58,590 nucleotides of DNA from Pseudorhodobacter sp. E13 (GTDB lineage Bacteria > Pseudomonadota > Alphaproteobacteria > Rhodobacterales > Rhodobacteraceae): positions 1-58,590 of the forward strand of contig NZ_RPEN01000145.1 of the NCBI RefSeq assembly GCF_003991405.1, given 5' to 3'. Under the pieces are notes generated by a model, which was not told the origin of the DNA, did no database searches, and saw only the letters and a list, made by a program, of their open reading frames with translations. Shown here one piece after another: positions 19,438 to 25,622 of the stretch. A program made the position numbers and the translations under genes. Numbering within the stretch: the first letter of the stretch is position 1; each line of letters starts with the position of its first letter.

Positions 19438-19641
19438 ATGCGCAGACCCAATCCCCTGCACCCCGACCACATGACGGCGCATGAACGCCGCACCGAACTC
19501 TATGACCTGCTGGCCACGGCAGTGGTGCGCCTCAAGGAGCGCGAACGCGGCCATCTCTCCCGAAATACTGGAGACTGTTCCCTACACTTCCGCCCCGAAC
19601 AGAGCGGTACTGCGGGTCCAACTCGGAGGAGATCCGCATGA
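19438..19641 (+). CDS. Small conserved protein of the recombinase operon (67 aa)
   Basis: The ATG at 19438 is preceded by GGGAGG. The 67-residue product starts MRRPNPLHPDHMTAHERRTE and contains LATAVVRLKER. Short proteins with this NPLHPDHMT..ERR signature commonly precede the DUF2924/recombinase pair in alphaproteobacterial elements. It overlaps the next ATG by 4 bp. Function unknown, possibly a recombination accessory factor. Confidence 0.75.
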   Translation: MRRPNPLHPDHMTAHERRTELYDLLATAVVRLKERERGHLSRNTGDCSLHFRPEQSGTAGPTRRRSA

Positions 19642-20093
19642 CGACACACGAACCCATCCTGGCGCGACTGGCAGCCCTAAAAAACATGACCGTCAACGAG
19701 CTGAAGGCTGAATGGCAGGCACTGTTTGATGCGCCCGCCCCGAACAACAGCCGCACGTTCCTAGAAAGCCGTTTGGCTTATCGAATCCAGGAACTGACCT
19801 ATGGCGGCCCGGACAAGCAAACGCGACGGCTTCTGGACTTACTTGCCGACGAGGTCGAGGGCACACTGACGCGTAAGGCACAGATTGCCGATCCCCGTAA
19901 CCCCGTGGTGGGCACCAAGCTCATCCGCGAATGGGATGGCATCGCCCACACCGTGACCGTGCTGAAAGAGGGCTTTGAATGGGGTGGCCAGCGCTACAAG
20001 TCGCTGTCCGCCGTGGCACGCGCCATCACCGGCACCCGCTGGAACGGCTATCGCTTCTTTGGGCTGCGAGAGCGGAAACGGGGTGAGGCATGA
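19638..20093 (+). CDS. DUF2924 domain protein
   Basis: This 151-residue protein has the DUF2924 signature: LAALKNMTVNELKAEWQALF, LAYRIQELTYGG, then IREWDGIAHTVTVLKEGFEW and SLSAVARAITGTRWNGYRFF. The family is found almost only beside serine recombinases in phages and integrated elements, and is assumed to assist recombination or bind DNA. It overlaps both neighbours by 4 bp, so the four-gene set is a tight operon. Confidence 0.9.
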   Translation: MTTHEPILARLAALKNMTVNELKAEWQALFDAPAPNNSRTFLESRLAYRIQELTYGGPDKQTRRLLDLLADEVEGTLTRKAQIADPRNPVVGTKLIREWDGIAHTVTVLKEGFEWGGQRYKSLSAVARAITGTRWNGYRFFGLRERKRGEA

Positions 20094-21412
20094 AGGAACA
20101 TGTGACAAAGCCCGCCCGCCGCCTGCGCTGCGCCATTTACACCCGCAAGTCGAGCGAGGAAGGACTCGAGCAGGAGTTCAACAGCCTGCATGCCCAACGG
20201 GAAGCCTGCGAGGCTTACATCGCCAGCCAGAAGTCAGAGGGATGGGCGCTGGTTCGCGATCAATATGACGATGGCGGCATCTCAGGTGGCACATTGGAGC
20301 GCCCTGGGCTGAAGCAGCTTCTGGCCGACATCGAGGACGGCCTCGTGGACGTGGTTGTCGTCTACAAAATCGACCGTCTGTCGCGCTCTCTGATGGACTT
20401 TTCTAAGCTGGTGGAGGTCTTTGACCGCAACGGGGTTACCTTCGTCTCGGTCACGCAAAGCTTCAATACCACAACATCCATGGGCCGATTGACCCTGAAT
20501 ATTCTGCTAAGTTTTGCACAATTCGAACGTGAGGTCACTGCCGAGCGCATTCGCGACAAGGTGAAGGCCTCGCGCATGAAGGGCATGTGGATGGGGGGCT
20601 ATGTGCCTCTCGGCTATGATGTCGTCGACCGCAAGCTGGTCGTTAACGAAGAGGAAGCCGCCAAGGTCCGCATGGTGTTTGAGCGTTTTGTTGAGGTAGG
20701 CTCTGCCACCGTTCTGGCCCGCGAACTGCGCAACGATGGGTTCCGCAGCAAACAAGGCGCGCTGATCGATAAGGGCTACCTCTATCGACTGCTGAACAAC
20801 CGGGTCTATCGCGGAGAAGCCGTTCACAAAGGCAAGGCATACGCCGGAGAACATAAGGCCATCATCGACACTCGCCTTTGGGAGCAGGTGCATGACATCA
20901 TGGGTGAAAGCCCCCGAAAGCGGGCAAACAACACTCGGACGCAAACGTCCGCATTGTTGAAGGGACTTCTCTTCACTGCAACGGGTGCGGCCATGACGCC
21001 GTCCAGCACCAAGAAGGGTACCCGAAGATATCGTTACTATGTGTCGATGGATCTTCTGAAGAACCGGGAGACGCCCGAGGATGGCATTCCTCGCCGCCTC
21101 CCTGCAGATACTGCCGAGGCGGCGGTGGTTGCCGAAATCCGCAGGGTGCTGCGCACACCAGAAACCGCAGCCAACGTCATCTCTGCCTTGGGCCGGGATG
21201 ACATTCCGGAGGCTGATGTAATCGCGGCCCTCAGGGACTTTCCAGAGCTGTGGACACAGCTTTTCCCAGCTGAACAGGCGCGTATCATTCAGTTGCTTGT
21301 ACGGCGCGTCACAGTGACCGCAGAAGGGCTCGTCATCGACCTGCGTACTGACGGCATCGCGGGCGTCATGCGCGAAATGATGACCCCACGACAGCTTGAG
21401 GCGGCAGAGTAA
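20090..21412 (+). CDS. Serine recombinase (putative integrase)
   Basis: This 440-residue protein has a resolvase catalytic domain with CAIYTRKSSEEG (nucleophile Ser21), the YKIDRLSRSLMDF arginine motif and AERIRDKVKAS at the helix E boundary. A Recombinase domain follows (VPLGYDVVDRKLVVNEEEA). The zinc-ribbon region that normally reads CxxCG is LFTATGAAMTPSSTKKGTRR and has no cysteines, so the C-terminal part does not bind zinc in the usual way. It probably integrates and excises the element. Confidence 0.9.
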   Translation: MKEHVTKPARRLRCAIYTRKSSEEGLEQEFNSLHAQREACEAYIASQKSEGWALVRDQYDDGGISGGTLERPGLKQLLADIEDGLVDVVVVYKIDRLSRSLMDFSKLVEVFDRNGVTFVSVTQSFNTTTSMGRLTLNILLSFAQFEREVTAERIRDKVKASRMKGMWMGGYVPLGYDVVDRKLVVNEEEAAKVRMVFERFVEVGSATVLARELRNDGFRSKQGALIDKGYLYRLLNNRVYRGEAVHKGKAYAGEHKAIIDTRLWEQVHDIMGESPRKRANNTRTQTSALLKGLLFTATGAAMTPSSTKKGTRRYRYYVSMDLLKNRETPEDGIPRRLPADTAEAAVVAEIRRVLRTPETAANVISALGRDDIPEADVIAALRDFPELWTQLFPAEQARIIQLLVRRVTVTAEGLVIDLRTDGIAGVMREMMTPRQLEAAE

Positions 21413-21825
21413 TGAGCGCGTTCGACACCATTCAGGTCTTCGTGCCGCTCAAGATCCGCAGGAAAAACGGGCGGCCGAAGATCATGCCGCCAGCGGATTA
21501 CCTGCCCAGCCACGATCAAGCGCAAGACCCGCATATTCTGCGCGCCATCGGCCGCGCTTGGGCATGGCGGCGGCGCATGGAGGCTGGCGAGTTCGGCACT
21601 GTCCGCGACCTGGCAAACGCCGTGAACCTTGCGGAGCGCCATATCAGTCGGCAGCTTCGCCTTGCATATCTTGCGCCAGAGGTGCTGAAACGGCTGATCT
21701 TCAAGCGGGAGCTCATGTCAGCGACCGTGATGCAACTGGTGGATTGCACATCGTTGCCGTGGCACGAACAGGCAGCGATTGTGTTCGGCGAAGCTTCCGA
21801 CGCGTCAAGACATGACCAAGGCTAG
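21412..21825 (+). CDS. HTH protein of the recombinase operon
   Basis: This 137-residue basic protein has FVPLKIRRKNGRPKIMPP at the N-terminus and a helix-turn-helix-like TVRDLANAVNLAERHISRQL (residues 63-82), followed by LAYLAPEVLKRLIFK as in ParB/KorB-like HTH modules. It starts on the last base of the recombinase stop codon. It may be a recombination directionality or accessory DNA-binding factor; that role is inferred from position only. Confidence 0.75.
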   Translation: MSAFDTIQVFVPLKIRRKNGRPKIMPPADYLPSHDQAQDPHILRAIGRAWAWRRRMEAGEFGTVRDLANAVNLAERHISRQLRLAYLAPEVLKRLIFKRELMSATVMQLVDCTSLPWHEQAAIVFGEASDASRHDQG

Positions 21826-21857: not shown

Positions 21858-22862
21858 ATGAGCACAAACCTGACCTTTCAACAGCTTGAGACCTACATCC
21901 GTGACCAGATGCGGATGTCGCATGTGTACCAGCCGGTCATGCTTCAGGTTCTGCTGGAAAAGGGCGGCACCGCATCGACCGAGGATATTGCAAAGGCTCT
22001 GCTGAGCTACGATCGCTCGCAGGTCGAGTATTATGAAATCCGCACCAAGAACATGGTCGGCAAAGTCCTCACGCAAAATGGCTTGATCCAGCCGATCAAG
22101 GATGGGCGGCGGATTGTCGGATACAGGTTGGCCAGCAACGAACTGTCCAACCACGAGGTCACCGCGCTCGTCGACCTATGCCAGCAACGCCTGTCCGGGT
22201 ACGTTGACCAACGTGGAGATGGAATTTGGGGGCACCGCGGGCTTTCGGATGGCTATGTCCCCGGTTCAGTACGCTATGAGGTGCTGAAGCGTGCCAAGCA
22301 CCGCTGTGAGCTATGTGGGGCCCACGAAGAACAGGCAGCCCTGCATGTCGACCATATCGTGCCGCGCGCCAAAGGCGGCAGCGACGATTTGAGCAATTTT
22401 CAAACGCTCTGCGTCACATGCAACACGAACAAGCGTGACAGGGACGACACCGATTTCCGTGACGTTCTGACCTCCTACGGCGTCAGAGACGAAGCCTGCC
22501 TGTTTTGCAGGATCGATCCCGACAGGGTCGTCGCCGAAAACGAGCTCTGCTACGCGATCCGCGATGGATTTCCGGTTACCCCATTGCATACGTTGGTCAT
22601 CCCAAAGCGGCACGTGGCCGATTACTTTGACCTCTACCAGCCCGAATTGAACGCGATGCAATCAATGCTCGGGGCACAACGCGAACAAATCCTCGCGGCA
22701 GATCCCACTGTCACAGGCTTCAATGTCGGCATCAACGCAGGCGCTGAGGCCGGCCAGACCATCTTCCATGTCCATGTCCACCTCATCCCGCGCAGGAAGG
22801 GCGACGTCGCTGACCCCCGAGGTGGCGTTCGTGGGGTGATTCCAGACAGGCAAAAGTATTAG
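21858..22862 (+). CDS. Winged-helix / HNH nuclease / HIT-domain fusion protein
   Basis: This 334-residue protein has three segments. Residues 26-92 look like a winged helix (VLLEKGGTASTEDIAKALLS). Residues 138-195 are an HNH nuclease: zinc pairs CELC (150-153) and CVTC (185-188) around HVDHIVPRAKGG (His163, Asp165, His166) and Asn191. Residues 212-325 are a HIT domain with a zinc-type CLFC (214-217), His244, and the histidine triad HVHVH (304-308). HIT proteins hydrolyse or transfer nucleotidyl groups. A DNA nuclease joined to a nucleotide hydrolase fits a defence effector, but this is inference. The GIY-YIG gene begins 2 bp later. Confidence 0.85.
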   Translation: MSTNLTFQQLETYIRDQMRMSHVYQPVMLQVLLEKGGTASTEDIAKALLSYDRSQVEYYEIRTKNMVGKVLTQNGLIQPIKDGRRIVGYRLASNELSNHEVTALVDLCQQRLSGYVDQRGDGIWGHRGLSDGYVPGSVRYEVLKRAKHRCELCGAHEEQAALHVDHIVPRAKGGSDDLSNFQTLCVTCNTNKRDRDDTDFRDVLTSYGVRDEACLFCRIDPDRVVAENELCYAIRDGFPVTPLHTLVIPKRHVADYFDLYQPELNAMQSMLGAQREQILAADPTVTGFNVGINAGAEAGQTIFHVHVHLIPRRKGDVADPRGGVRGVIPDRQKY

Positions 22863-22863
22863 G

Positions 22864-23319
22864 ATGAGCAGAGATCGGTTTTCCCCGCGGTTTCGTTTTG
22901 CGTCTTGGCCCAACCTTAGCGTGCCCGCGGTTGCCGCAGGTGTTTATGCAATTTGGAGGGACGACGAACTCATCTATTGCGGCATGTCTGGGCGAGAGAT
23001 CGACAGCAAGGGAAAGGCCGCGCCCAAGAGGTACGGACTAGTAACCCGCCTCAATAGTCATGCAAGCGGTAGGCTGTCTGGCGACCAGTTCTGTGTCTAC
23101 GTGGCGAACCGGTTCGTTATACCCTCGCTCAAAGCGGACGAACTTTCACTGTTCGCAAGCGGCGCGCTGACGCTGGATGCACGCACAAAGACATTCATCC
23201 ACGACCACCTCGATTATGCCTATGCATTGGTCGAAACGTCAGCAGACGCCTACGAGTTAGAACGTGCTGCACGCCGCGGTGCAGTCTTCGGCGTAAAGCC
23301 TTATCTCAATCCCCTCTGA
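22864..23319 (+). CDS. GIY-YIG nuclease-family protein paired with the HNH-HIT gene
   Basis: This 151-residue protein shows GVYAIW (26-31) and LIYCGMSG (36-43) as the GIY-YIG strands, LVTRLNSHASGR with Arg62, and AYELERAARRG with Glu131/Glu133 near the C-terminus. The ending FGVKPYLNP is typical of stand-alone GIY-YIG proteins. It starts one base after the HNH-HIT stop codon, so the two are co-translated. A function in DNA cleavage is likely and the target unknown. Confidence 0.8.
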   Translation: MSRDRFSPRFRFASWPNLSVPAVAAGVYAIWRDDELIYCGMSGREIDSKGKAAPKRYGLVTRLNSHASGRLSGDQFCVYVANRFVIPSLKADELSLFASGALTLDARTKTFIHDHLDYAYALVETSADAYELERAARRGAVFGVKPYLNPL

Positions 23320-23565
23320 TGCGGCCAAGGCGAGCGCCCTGTGACCGACCCAAGCATTCGCATCGTTTTGTGGTATCAGTCACGTTTTCGAAAAGGGCGG
23401 GCGTGTTTAATCTGCAAGTCACTGCAGATATTCATCTTTTCTAAAGCGTCCCATTGCAGGGCTGGGGCGCTCGTTTAGAGACAAACTGCGTTTGGAGACC
23501 AATTCTTTGTGGTTTCGCAGTCTCTATGGGGCGGCCTGTCAGCGTAAACCCCTTTGAAACCAAAA
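23320..23565. other. Non-coding junction between the nuclease pair and tRNA-Ser
   Basis: No gene is visible. The stretch holds a perfect TTTTCGAAAA palindrome near 23384 and, at about 23476-23527, AGAGACAAACTGCG facing CGCAGTCTCT across a 26-base spacer, with GGAGACCAA inside. This may be a structured RNA, or the right end (attachment site) of the element; no second copy is present in the window to test that. Confidence 0.4.
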
Positions 23566-23590
23566 CAAAAAAGGCCCCCGCAAGGGCCCA
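23566..23590 (-). terminator. Rho-independent terminator of tRNA-Ser
   Basis: On the minus strand GGGCCCTTGCGGGGGCC is followed by TTTTTTG. The stem of GGCCC with GGGCC and a T run of six fits an intrinsic terminator 24 bases after the tRNA 3' end. Confidence 0.8.
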
Positions 23591-23613
23591 TCAACAGTTT
23601 CGGCAAGTGTAGG

Positions 23614-23703
23614 TGGCGGAGGCGGTGGGATTCGAACCCACGGTACGGTCTCCCGTACGCTCAGTTAGCAACCGAGTGCTTTCGGCCTCTCAGCCACGCC
23701 TCC
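23614..23703 (-). tRNA. tRNA-Ser (anticodon GCT)
   Basis: The acceptor arms GGAGGCG and CGCCTCC pair, followed by discriminator G and encoded CCA. The anticodon loop is TTGCTAA in a CTCGG/TGAG-type stem, so the anticodon is GCT (serine AGC/AGT). A long variable arm (GCGTACGGGAGACCGTAC) and GGTTCGAATCC T-arm confirm class II tRNA-Ser. It marks the start of clear host sequence and lies 294 bp after the last prophage-side gene. Confidence 0.95.
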
Positions 23704-23765
23704 GACGATGCCCATTTAACAACGCCGCGCCCTCTGGGCAAGGGTGAAAACACGCGCGGGCTGAA

Positions 23766-24209
23766 TTACGCGGGCAAACGCCCCTCCAGCACATAGCGCA
23801 AAATCTGCGCCACCTGCTCGGGGCGTTCCACCACCGCCAAGGCCGCCGCATCCACCTCTTTCAGCGCATGCTGATGCTCGGCCCCGTGCATCACAATCAG
23901 CGATTTACCCATCGCTGCCGCCTGTCCCGCGTCAAAGGCCGCATTCCACTGCTTGTATTTGTCGCCAAAGCGAACCACCACCACATCCGCCGCCGCCAGA
24001 TCCCTGCGCGTGCGGATCGCGTTCAGCTTGGCGCCCTTGTGGTCATTCCAGAACTTGTCGGCCTCCGCCCCCATGATCGCCACCCCGCAATCATCCGAGG
24101 CGGCATGGTCCGTCACCGGCCCGGTGAACACCACATCCAACCCCTCGCAGCCCGCAGCCACCTCGGCCCGCCAATCGGAATGAATTTCCCCCGCCAGATA
24201 AACCTTCAT
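23766..24209 (-). CDS. ytoQ: YtoQ family protein
   Basis: This 147-residue protein begins MKVYLAGEIHSDWRAEVAAG and contains VVFTGPVTDHAASDDCG, ADKFWNDHKGAKLNAIRTR and DVVVVRFGDKYKQWNAAFDA, the conserved YtoQ pattern (a nucleoside 2-deoxyribosyltransferase-like fold). The second ATG is chosen because GGAGG is then 5 bases upstream. The biological role of YtoQ is not established. Confidence 0.9.
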   Translation of the reverse strand: MKVYLAGEIHSDWRAEVAAGCEGLDVVFTGPVTDHAASDDCGVAIMGAEADKFWNDHKGAKLNAIRTRRDLAAADVVVVRFGDKYKQWNAAFDAGQAAAMGKSLIVMHGAEHQHALKEVDAAALAVVERPEQVAQILRYVLEGRLPA

Positions 24210-24392: not shown

Positions 24393-25622
24393 ATGAGTGA
24401 TCTTTGGACATGGGCAAACGACAACAGCGGCGGGCTGGCATTGCTGGGTGTTGCATTCCCGCTGCTGATCTTGGCAATCGGCTTTCTAGCCAGCCACTTT
24501 CGCGCCGTCCCTACCGAGAAAATGCTGCGCGATCCGGCCTCATGGTCCGCTCTTGCGCAGACCTACCAAAGCAGCGGCAGTGATGCTTATTTCCAGTCAC
24601 TGGATCGCGTCTTGGGCTTTGCCAACCGCTGGTATGGCGAACGCCTTTTGTCTTGGCGTGCTTATGGCACCTGCTTAACCCTCGCCTTTGTTTACCCGCT
24701 GCTGGCCTTGCTGATCGGTTGGGGCCTGTTCAACATTTGGGCACCAGCCGGAATTTCGATTTTTCGCGATACTGGTTCGGGGTTTGAACGCGCATTGCGC
24801 TTGGTGCTGTTTGCCGCAGGGGCTGCCACAGCCTTGAATATTGTTAAAAACGAAGAAAGTTTTTCGCAGTTTGTGGTTAATAAGCTTTTCAAACCGCTTG
24901 ACGATCCCAACACCCGGCCCAGTTTTCTATCGAAGGTGGGCCGGGTGTTGGTTGAAGTTCTTGCCTTTGCCTTTGCCTTTGCCTTTGCCGTTGTCGCTGC
25001 CGTTGCCGTTGCCGTTGCCTTTGCCGTTGTCGCTGCCGATATTGACGCGGCTTTGATGATCTTTCTCCTCTACGTCCTCCTTCCCGTCCTGAACGCTGCG
25101 GCCGACCTGCTGTCACTCGCCATCACCCGCTTTTTTCTGGCAAGGGTTCTTGCGCAAAGGCCCGTCGTCTGGATCATCCTCGCCCAAATGCTGCTGGATC
25201 TGGCTTTGGCAGCGTGTTGCTTGCTGTTGCTTCTCGCTGCCCTTGTCGGCGCGCTAGAGATATGGTCCGCCCTTAGCCCCGCCACCGCTCCGCTTGACTG
25301 GCGCGCCTTTTGGGCCAGCATCCACGCCGATCCAAAGCAAGGCATCACCCTTTACTTGATGGCCGCTACGACATTGGTCCCGACGCTTGTGCACCTGATC
25401 GCAGGTTTGGGGGCTGTCTGGACGCAAAAGTCACGGCTACTGCACCCAGTCGCCGCGAAACTTGCGGCGCAGCCCGTCACAAAACCGTTTGCGGAAATTG
25501 AGATTGACCAAATGCTTCGCACCATCGGTCGGGCCACGCTTTGGGGCTATGCCCGCGCGAGTGTTGCAGTCATCCTGCCCACAGCCATTTTGTTGTGGAT
25601 TGCTTACTCCCTCATAATCTAA
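24393..25622 (+). CDS. Multi-pass membrane protein with an internal hexapeptide-type repeat
   Basis: This 409-residue protein has about seven to eight hydrophobic segments: near residues 14-34, 89-110, 125-146, 188-218, 222-245, 255-290, 315-345 and 383-408. Segment 188-218 is pure Ala/Val/Phe, encoded by GCCTTT/GCCGTT hexamers. The loop FRAVPTEKMLRDPASW is cytoplasmic-looking. I recognise no family; it resembles hypothetical proteobacterial membrane proteins that carry similar AFAFAVAV helices. Stand-alone gene. Confidence 0.75.
   Translation: MSDLWTWANDNSGGLALLGVAFPLLILAIGFLASHFRAVPTEKMLRDPASWSALAQTYQSSGSDAYFQSLDRVLGFANRWYGERLLSWRAYGTCLTLAFVYPLLALLIGWGLFNIWAPAGISIFRDTGSGFERALRLVLFAAGAATALNIVKNEESFSQFVVNKLFKPLDDPNTRPSFLSKVGRVLVEVLAFAFAFAFAVVAAVAVAVAFAVVAADIDAALMIFLLYVLLPVLNAAADLLSLAITRFFLARVLAQRPVVWIILAQMLLDLALAACCLLLLLAALVGALEIWSALSPATAPLDWRAFWASIHADPKQGITLYLMAATTLVPTLVHLIAGLGAVWTQKSRLLHPVAAKLAAQPVTKPFAEIEIDQMLRTIGRATLWGYARASVAVILPTAILLWIAYSLII
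24961..25037 (+). repeat. Hexanucleotide repeat tract inside the membrane protein gene
   Basis: About twelve consecutive 6-base units alternate GCCTTT, GCCGTT and variants (GTCGCT). Each unit is two codons (Ala-Phe or Ala-Val), so gain or loss of a unit keeps frame and lengthens or shortens the transmembrane helix. Confidence 0.85.

Follow-up and report, generated by a model that had tools for sequence, protein, structure and literature searches.

A 334-residue protein encoded in a prophage of Pseudorhodobacter sp. E13 is best read as one of a family of single-chain proteins, widely exchanged, in which a winged helix (wH), an HNH nuclease domain and a HIT domain follow one another. The window, as we call the whole 58,590-nucleotide stretch of DNA analyzed, carries the gene at 21858..22862 on the forward strand. 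The family probably represents a type of antiviral nuclease not described so far, because the slot that the gene occupies often holds antiviral genes in related prophages and because the fusions often adjoin other DNA-cutting enzymes. On balance, we lean towards a defence nuclease of the restriction type that acts alone, is probably modification-dependent and has an FHIT-like nucleotide-binding control domain, carried as prophage superinfection-exclusion cargo. The unit is the fusion and not a fixed pair of HNH-HIT and GIY proteins, since the partner nucleases change in kind and the window's GIY gene does not extend beyond a single prophage lineage.

The wH-HNH-HIT protein and its relatives

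The initial annotation had described one chain joining a winged helix, an HNH nuclease and a HIT hydrolase, and the fusion proved to be real. The open reading frame held an HNH domain at residues 150-195 (22305..22442, +; Pfam, 1.3e-14) and a HIT domain at residues 221-314 (22518..22799, +; Pfam, 8.9e-22), both above the curated cut-offs and both conserved in related fusions. Pfam and the residue survey yielded a complete set of HNH catalytic and zinc residues (C150, C153, D165, H166, N180, C185, C188, N189 and K192), together with H244, Q300 and the HxHxH triad His304/306/308 of the HIT domain. The two residues named earlier as active-site positions were therefore right, His166 being the HNH histidine and His306 the middle of the triad. 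Within the window's lineage, dN/dS of the fusion was 0.03-0.19 over 15 pairs, several of them with saturated dS.

For the predicted winged helix (residues 24-91; 21927..22130, +), the AlphaFold2 model, built on a 45-row alignment, placed helices 24-34, 41-49 and 53-73 and strands 77-82 and 85-91 in a wH layout at a pLDDT of 78-89. A sequence comparison of this part with the PDB returned no match, which counted against the defence-nuclease reading. In the model (mean pLDDT 85), the wH part was followed by a long helix at 98-130, the HNH domain and the HIT domain, an arrangement that is uncertain because pTM was 0.53. Foldseek with the model gave HIT proteins in all 50 listed of 514 matches, and the wH fold was unmatched among these. 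The HNH part resembled IscB, Cas9 and phage HNH proteins. Also counted against the defence-nuclease reading was the PADLOC result, in which no model spanned the fusion and matches covered the HIT or the HNH part alone.

By sequence and by Foldseek, the HIT domain was nearest to FHIT and HIT-family hydrolases among the PDB matches listed. This bears on a role in DNA end-processing or repair, in which HIT would strip nucleotide adducts from DNA ends in the manner of aprataxin and HNH would trim them. Aprataxin-type HIT enzymes deadenylate DNA, a precedent for such a role; no aprataxin stood among the PDB matches listed, where FHIT and HIT-family hydrolases led, and the sparse, mobile occurrence of the fusion speaks against it as well. 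We regard end-processing as very improbable.

The family is sparse but widely spread, in bacteria and some archaea. A near full-length fusion was present in 5/148 genomes of the order, 3/289 of the class and 5/299 of the phylum, with the window's genome counted each time, and among 72,556 plasmids and 50,697 phages no record matched 80% of the fusion in a single place. Of 548 stretches confirmed across 84,980 species genomes, the best 80 were taken, so that the family has further members; the fusion was found in 71 of the 79 loci analyzed together (eight lacked it by the criterion used), giving at least 71 copies in at least 62 clusters at 85% identity. These 71 copies include L112, which has no HNH core, and copies apparently from one genome. 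Outside the 62-cluster set stood L033-L037, which belong to the window's lineage (represented by L189 besides the window), L004-L007, L045, L046 and L054-L057, which were replaced by longer stretches or lay on the same contig, and L047/L048, in which HNH was lost. Judged by record titles, the bacterial copies came from Pseudomonadota, Cyanobacteriota, Bacteroidota, Verrucomicrobiota, Nitrospirota, Chloroflexota and Fidelibacterota. Three further copies came from archaeal MAGs, L112 among them, and MAG binning may err in single cases.

A patchy distribution over phyla and a free-standing placement would also suit a homing-type mobile nuclease, an HNH gene that spreads itself into new sites with HIT as a passenger. 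The resemblance of the HNH part to IscB, Cas9 and phage HNH proteins agrees with this, as does the position near ParB-methyltransferase and terminase-like genes in L187 and a ParB-like gene in L148 (by eye). Conservation of the catalytic HIT domain, the existence of separate HIT and HNH gene pairs and a slot common to defence genes all argue against homing, which we consider quite unlikely.

Residue conservation was nearly complete. C150 was kept in all 71 copies, and C153, D165, H166, N180, C185, C188, N189 and K192 were kept in 70, the exception being a gap in L112. In the HIT domain, H244 was kept in 71/71 copies, Q300, H304 and H308 in each of the 68 copies that have letters there, and H306 in 67 of 68, with tyrosine in L103. 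The HNH core was absent from L047 and L112 while their HIT residues were intact, which was counted against the defence-nuclease reading; L048 likewise had no HNH core and retained the triad, with N289 changed and an early TGA. Loss of HNH with retention of HIT in these three copies speaks against HIT as a mere accessory. It favours a reading in which the HIT domain does the principal work, as a nucleotide hydrolase for phage or host, and HNH is secondary; phage records and viral contigs in which a HIT gene stands alone point the same way. That reading has to face HNH residues unchanged in 70/71 copies, and we give it little credence. In a separate observation, the fusion of L065 (9887-10879), which lies near an McrC gene, was truncated within its HIT domain at the start of a gene judged transposase-like by eye.

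The prophage slot and the downstream GIY-YIG-type gene

The left part of the window was a prophage, with genes for a portal protein, large and small terminase subunits, a ParB-methyltransferase, a RuvC-like protein, a primase-helicase, a helicase, a Sak4-like protein and a Cas4-domain exonuclease. Its recombinase operon opened with a DUF2924 gene (19638..20093, +; Pfam), followed by a serine recombinase (20090..21412, +; Pfam Resolvase and Recombinase) and a 137-aa recombinase-associated gene (21412..21825, +; phrog_14161). The fusion began 32 bases after the latter and was followed by a GIY-YIG-type gene and, beyond these cargo genes, by a tRNA-Ser(gct) (23614..23703, -; ARAGORN), as expected from the earlier description of cargo between a recombinase operon and a tRNA. 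The element's other end falls outside the window; neither the exact attachment site nor a second copy of the attachment region was found, and the other matches to 23321-23770 in the same genome were partial and 70-83% identical. Farther on, at 24393-25622, lay a gene for a 409-aa protein, membrane-like by eye, that contains a low-complexity stretch of alternating Ala/Val/Phe and has no Pfam or NCBIfam match.

The slot itself was surveyed among viral loci carrying related recombinases: of 312, the best 80 were kept, 79 of these were examined (L036 was left out), and 42 of the 79 reached at least 700 bp beyond the recombinase. Of these 42 related prophage loci, 32 had a homologue of the 137-aa gene called next to the recombinase. 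Among the 37 clusters that the 42 loci formed, the slot held the fusion in four (one being the window's own sequence), PDC-S36 in 12, a PARIS-like AriA/AriB pair plus PDC-S36 in one, PDC-S21 in one, and other genes or nothing recognized in 19. The PADLOC labels were tested on one representative each: L252 for PDC-S36 (3.4e-132), L276 for AriA (2.3e-32) and AriB (3.8e-17), and L278 for PDC-S21 (2.2e-92). PARIS-like genes or PADLOC defence candidates thus filled the slot in 14/37 clusters, in line with the initial claim that the position is typical for defence genes, with the PDC-S36 loci being kin prophages and not independent events. A variable slot at the recombinase end is therefore common to the fusion and to known or candidate defence genes, as would be expected of defence cargo in a prophage. 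As an observation on the kin prophages, a 278-aa PDC-S36-type gene followed the recombinase at a constant 384 bp in 14 of 15 loci (L251, L252, L254-L257, L259-L261 and L263-L268).

The second cargo gene encodes a 151-aa protein (22864..23319, +) whose ATG at 22864 lies one base beyond the fusion's stop at 22860-22862, so the 1-bp gap noted earlier is correct. GIY-YIG nucleases carry the motif series GIY..YIG, R, E and N. The 151-aa protein showed G26-V-Y28, Y38-C-G40, R62, E133 and N149, and had no Pfam, PHROGs or PADLOC match; PF20815 was not found in the window's own genome. Its GIY identity was further indicated by L196, a 133-aa distant viral relative that aligned with its core (residues 24-66) at 47% and itself matched the GIY-YIG domain of UvrC in the PDB at 6.5e-5. 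An AlphaFold2 model on a four-row alignment reached a mean pLDDT of 35.5 and was set aside. Half of the ten pairs compared gave a dN/dS of 0.03-0.16, the other five being saturated.

The annotation had taken the two genes for one two-nuclease defence module, and the survey gave this part of it no support. The window's GIY gene was present in 2/148 genomes of the order, the window's own included, and in four viral contigs, of which one matched the window at 100% identity; it was absent from L037, where the fusion was 83% identical and other DNA stood in its place, and from L039. A class-level search with the GIY profile hit 2/240 genomes, the window's own and G285; G285 was rejected as a carrier and taken as false because the matched frame overlaps an ABC transporter gene. 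Other GIY-YIG genes followed the fusion in L183 (T5orf172, 10 bp) and L147 (GIY_YIG_2, -4 bp), and in L056, 415 bp downstream, one was recognized by motif only. When the window's GIY profile was aligned with the L147 protein by hhalign, the score was not significant (E 0.22, probability 0.3%), though the short aligned stretch covered the YIG region.

When the window's GIY gene, GIY_YIG_2 and T5orf172 served as queries, 4/62 clusters had a GIY gene within three genes of the fusion, two of these clusters (the window and L189) being the same element; the other partners were different nucleases, unrelated genes or none. Across the 62 clusters at 85% identity, the order genomes and the viral contigs, the pair was not conserved among distant fusions. 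A dedicated two-component defence system, in which the fusion and this GIY-YIG protein act together, is consequently unlikely, even with the 1-bp spacing, both genes intact and at low dN/dS where measurable, GIY-YIG genes of other kinds after the fusion in L183 and L147, and the pair kept in six listed records of one lineage (cluster C4, where L033 duplicates the window's sequence).

Nucleases beside the fusion and HIT in other arrangements

Tight neighbours, defined as same-strand genes within 60 bp of a fusion, numbered 34, and 31 of them were scanned with Pfam; the two of L189 (same element) and an overlapping frame in L039 were omitted, and for the window the 137-aa gene took the place of a spurious 139-aa frame. 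Nuclease or restriction families were found in 13/31: HNH_2 in three, HNH, SNase and PLD/ResIII in two each, and GIY_YIG_2, T5orf172/MUG113, McrBC and Exo_endo_phos in one each. Ten of the 13 were named individually and the other three by similarity. A neighbour in L069 gave an additional HNH_5 match below the cut-off, and the window's GIY gene an additional motif match. The remaining tight neighbours included a cupin, transporters, an integrase, a reverse transcriptase and small proteins without a match. As a control, 129 genes at least five genes away from a fusion were drawn and 115 scanned, the 14 omitted being frames that reached the locus end; among the first 25 of 155 families listed for these 115 genes, no nuclease family had two members and there was one EcoRII-C gene, an incomplete control that was counted against the defence-nuclease reading. 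The fusion's own HNH profile matched 3/98 adjacent genes on either strand versus 1/737 others (Fisher p 0.006), and it misses the HNH genes adjoining L082 and L091.

The proximity to defence genes anticipated by the annotation was seen in several individual loci. The partner in L089 was an EVE-HNH protein that matched VcaM4I (6yex) end to end (8.7e-71), the partner in L099 matched McrA (2.1e-19), that in L097 was a PLD-helicase matching PADLOC mREase_IV, a type IV enzyme (1.9e-227), McrC lay beside the fusion in L065 and L071, and a reverse-transcriptase (DRT) gene adjoined another fusion. Judged by these families, many partners (EVE-HNH, McrA-like, McrC and PLD-helicase) are of the modification-dependent kind. 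VcaM4I, the model for the EVE-HNH partners, prefers 5mC/5hmC DNA, according to the consulted part of PMC7897488. Searches with EVE-HNH, McrA-like, McrC, PLD-helicase, SNase and three GIY proteins as queries placed a recognized nuclease within three genes in 16/62 clusters (window and L189 counted apart), a tally and not an enrichment test, which is circular because the queries were picked from these neighbours. Adding L069, L076, L082, L091, L101 and L105 raised the count to 22/62. In the other 40 clusters no nuclease was recognized within three genes, part of the neighbours having been scanned and some flanks being short, and this was counted against the defence-nuclease reading. Copies among ordinary genes also spoke against it: L184 lay by an ABC transporter permease, L088 by a POT transporter, and L083 and L179 were placed there by eye. 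In L151 and L152, a 1051-aa gene on the opposite strand, Cas9-like by eye in L151, lay about 325 bp away from the fusion.

HIT was also met apart from the fusion, in 33 loci (24 from the genome scan and nine viral), three of which had no called HIT gene. In 7/24 genome-scan loci and 0/9 viral loci, HIT lay within 8 bp of a gene for a 333-342-aa protein with a C-terminal HNH (L131, L132, L137, L138, L141, L142 and L143); the HIT there was stand-alone, FHIT-like and of the same subfamily as the fusion's. In L061 (G608; 1-1923, -), HIT was fused to a PLD-nuclease/ResIII helicase in one open reading frame. The link between HIT and nucleases recurs in three arrangements, none of them obligate. A HIT tree of 104 rows and 126 columns intermixed fused and separate HITs, its starred branches forcing at least four changes of the fused label; it was poorly resolved, so one and several fusion events are not separable by that tree.

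The separate 340-aa HNH protein (HNH340), kin of a phrog_338-like protein in L132, was rejected as an obligate HIT partner, as 0/8 further HNH340 loci had HIT in the available flank. A class I methyltransferase stood beside it in 6/8 (L197, L198 and L200-L203, at -17 to +12 bp), and the HNH340 and class I SAM methyltransferase genes look like a separate module. Of these loci, L200/L201 look like near copies, L202/L204 share an upstream gene, and L204 ends inside HNH340. In L203, the pair was followed by a gene 50% identical to the GIY_YIG_2 protein of L147.

Proposed role and comparison with known systems

We infer DNA cleavage, a modified-DNA target, nucleotide gating and an antiviral effect for the fusion. 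The winged helix would bind, and perhaps read, the target DNA, probably modified DNA, and the HNH domain would cut it; DNA binding and cutting are assigned from the families to which the domains belong. Modified DNA is suggested as the target by the partner enzymes and, by analogy, by published wH-HNH enzymes (consulted parts of PMC11037411 and PMC10101028). The FHIT-like HIT domain may bind or hydrolyse a nucleotide, an ApnA-type dinucleotide or similar, and in this way gate or time the cut, presumably sensing or resetting through the nucleotide. In the window, the fusion would serve as superinfection-exclusion cargo of the prophage, and the GIY-YIG gene would be a separate, exchangeable partner nuclease.

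A more specific form of this role is a nucleotide-gated restriction nuclease: infection would raise a dinucleotide such as Ap4A or leave a nucleotide adduct on DNA, the FHIT-like domain would bind it and license HNH cutting, and slow hydrolysis would reset the system. We hold this possible but doubtful. If true, a single chain would unite sensor, timer and effector, the arrangement with HIT and a different HNH protein encoded separately would be a parallel form, and the operon would need no signal-making enzyme.

If the defence-nuclease reading is true, the fusions form a new family among prophage-carried restriction-type nucleases. In the literature searched (mostly open-access, and seen in part) for HNH-HIT, wH-HNH with HIT, and HIT in defence, no description of an HNH-HIT fusion was found, and the consulted parts of PMC13092281 and PMC12458937 speak of no HIT domain. 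HIT hydrolases are ancient nucleotide enzymes; ThsC of Thoeris II, one case beside defence genes, was the only HIT defence protein met in that literature (PMC8565338, in the part consulted). The conserved HNH-HIT fusion and the separate HIT/HNH pair tie HIT directly to a nuclease, so that mutating single residues in one small protein can test its role.

A close likeness is to the wH-HNH and PUA/SRA-wH-HNH modification-dependent endonucleases (SruGXI, HtuIII, HhiV4I/HHPV4I), in which wH precedes HNH, an order predicted for the fusion too, in one free-standing chain that is also virus-borne. The likeness is one of predicted domain layout, and the consulted parts of PMC11037411 and PMC10101028 mention no HIT domain in those enzymes, whereas the window's protein has one. 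With FHIT and HIT-family dinucleotide hydrolases, the fusion has in common the HIT fold, the triad and the upstream His and Gln, and its model matched FHIT chains; unlike in those hydrolases, its HIT is fused to wH-HNH. The HIT protein ThsC of Thoeris type II is likewise defence-associated (PMC8565338, as far as consulted), and the fusion matched PADLOC ThsC2 at 2.3e-8; unlike in Thoeris type II, no TIR (ThsB) or ThsA match occurred among the window proteins scanned (eight by Pfam, six by PADLOC). GIY-YIG nucleases are used in defence by CMoRE (PMC12923530) and the wH-GIY-YIG enzymes (PMC11037411), in the parts of both sources consulted, and the window's 151-aa GIY protein is comparable to these by nuclease type. 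PtuB of Septu, an HNH effector, gave weak PADLOC matches to the fusion's HNH part (best 1.1e-5). Cap5-type proteins are HNH effectors as well. Unlike PtuB and Cap5-type systems, which the fusion resembles in its HNH effector, the neighbours scanned gave no ATPase or cyclase match.
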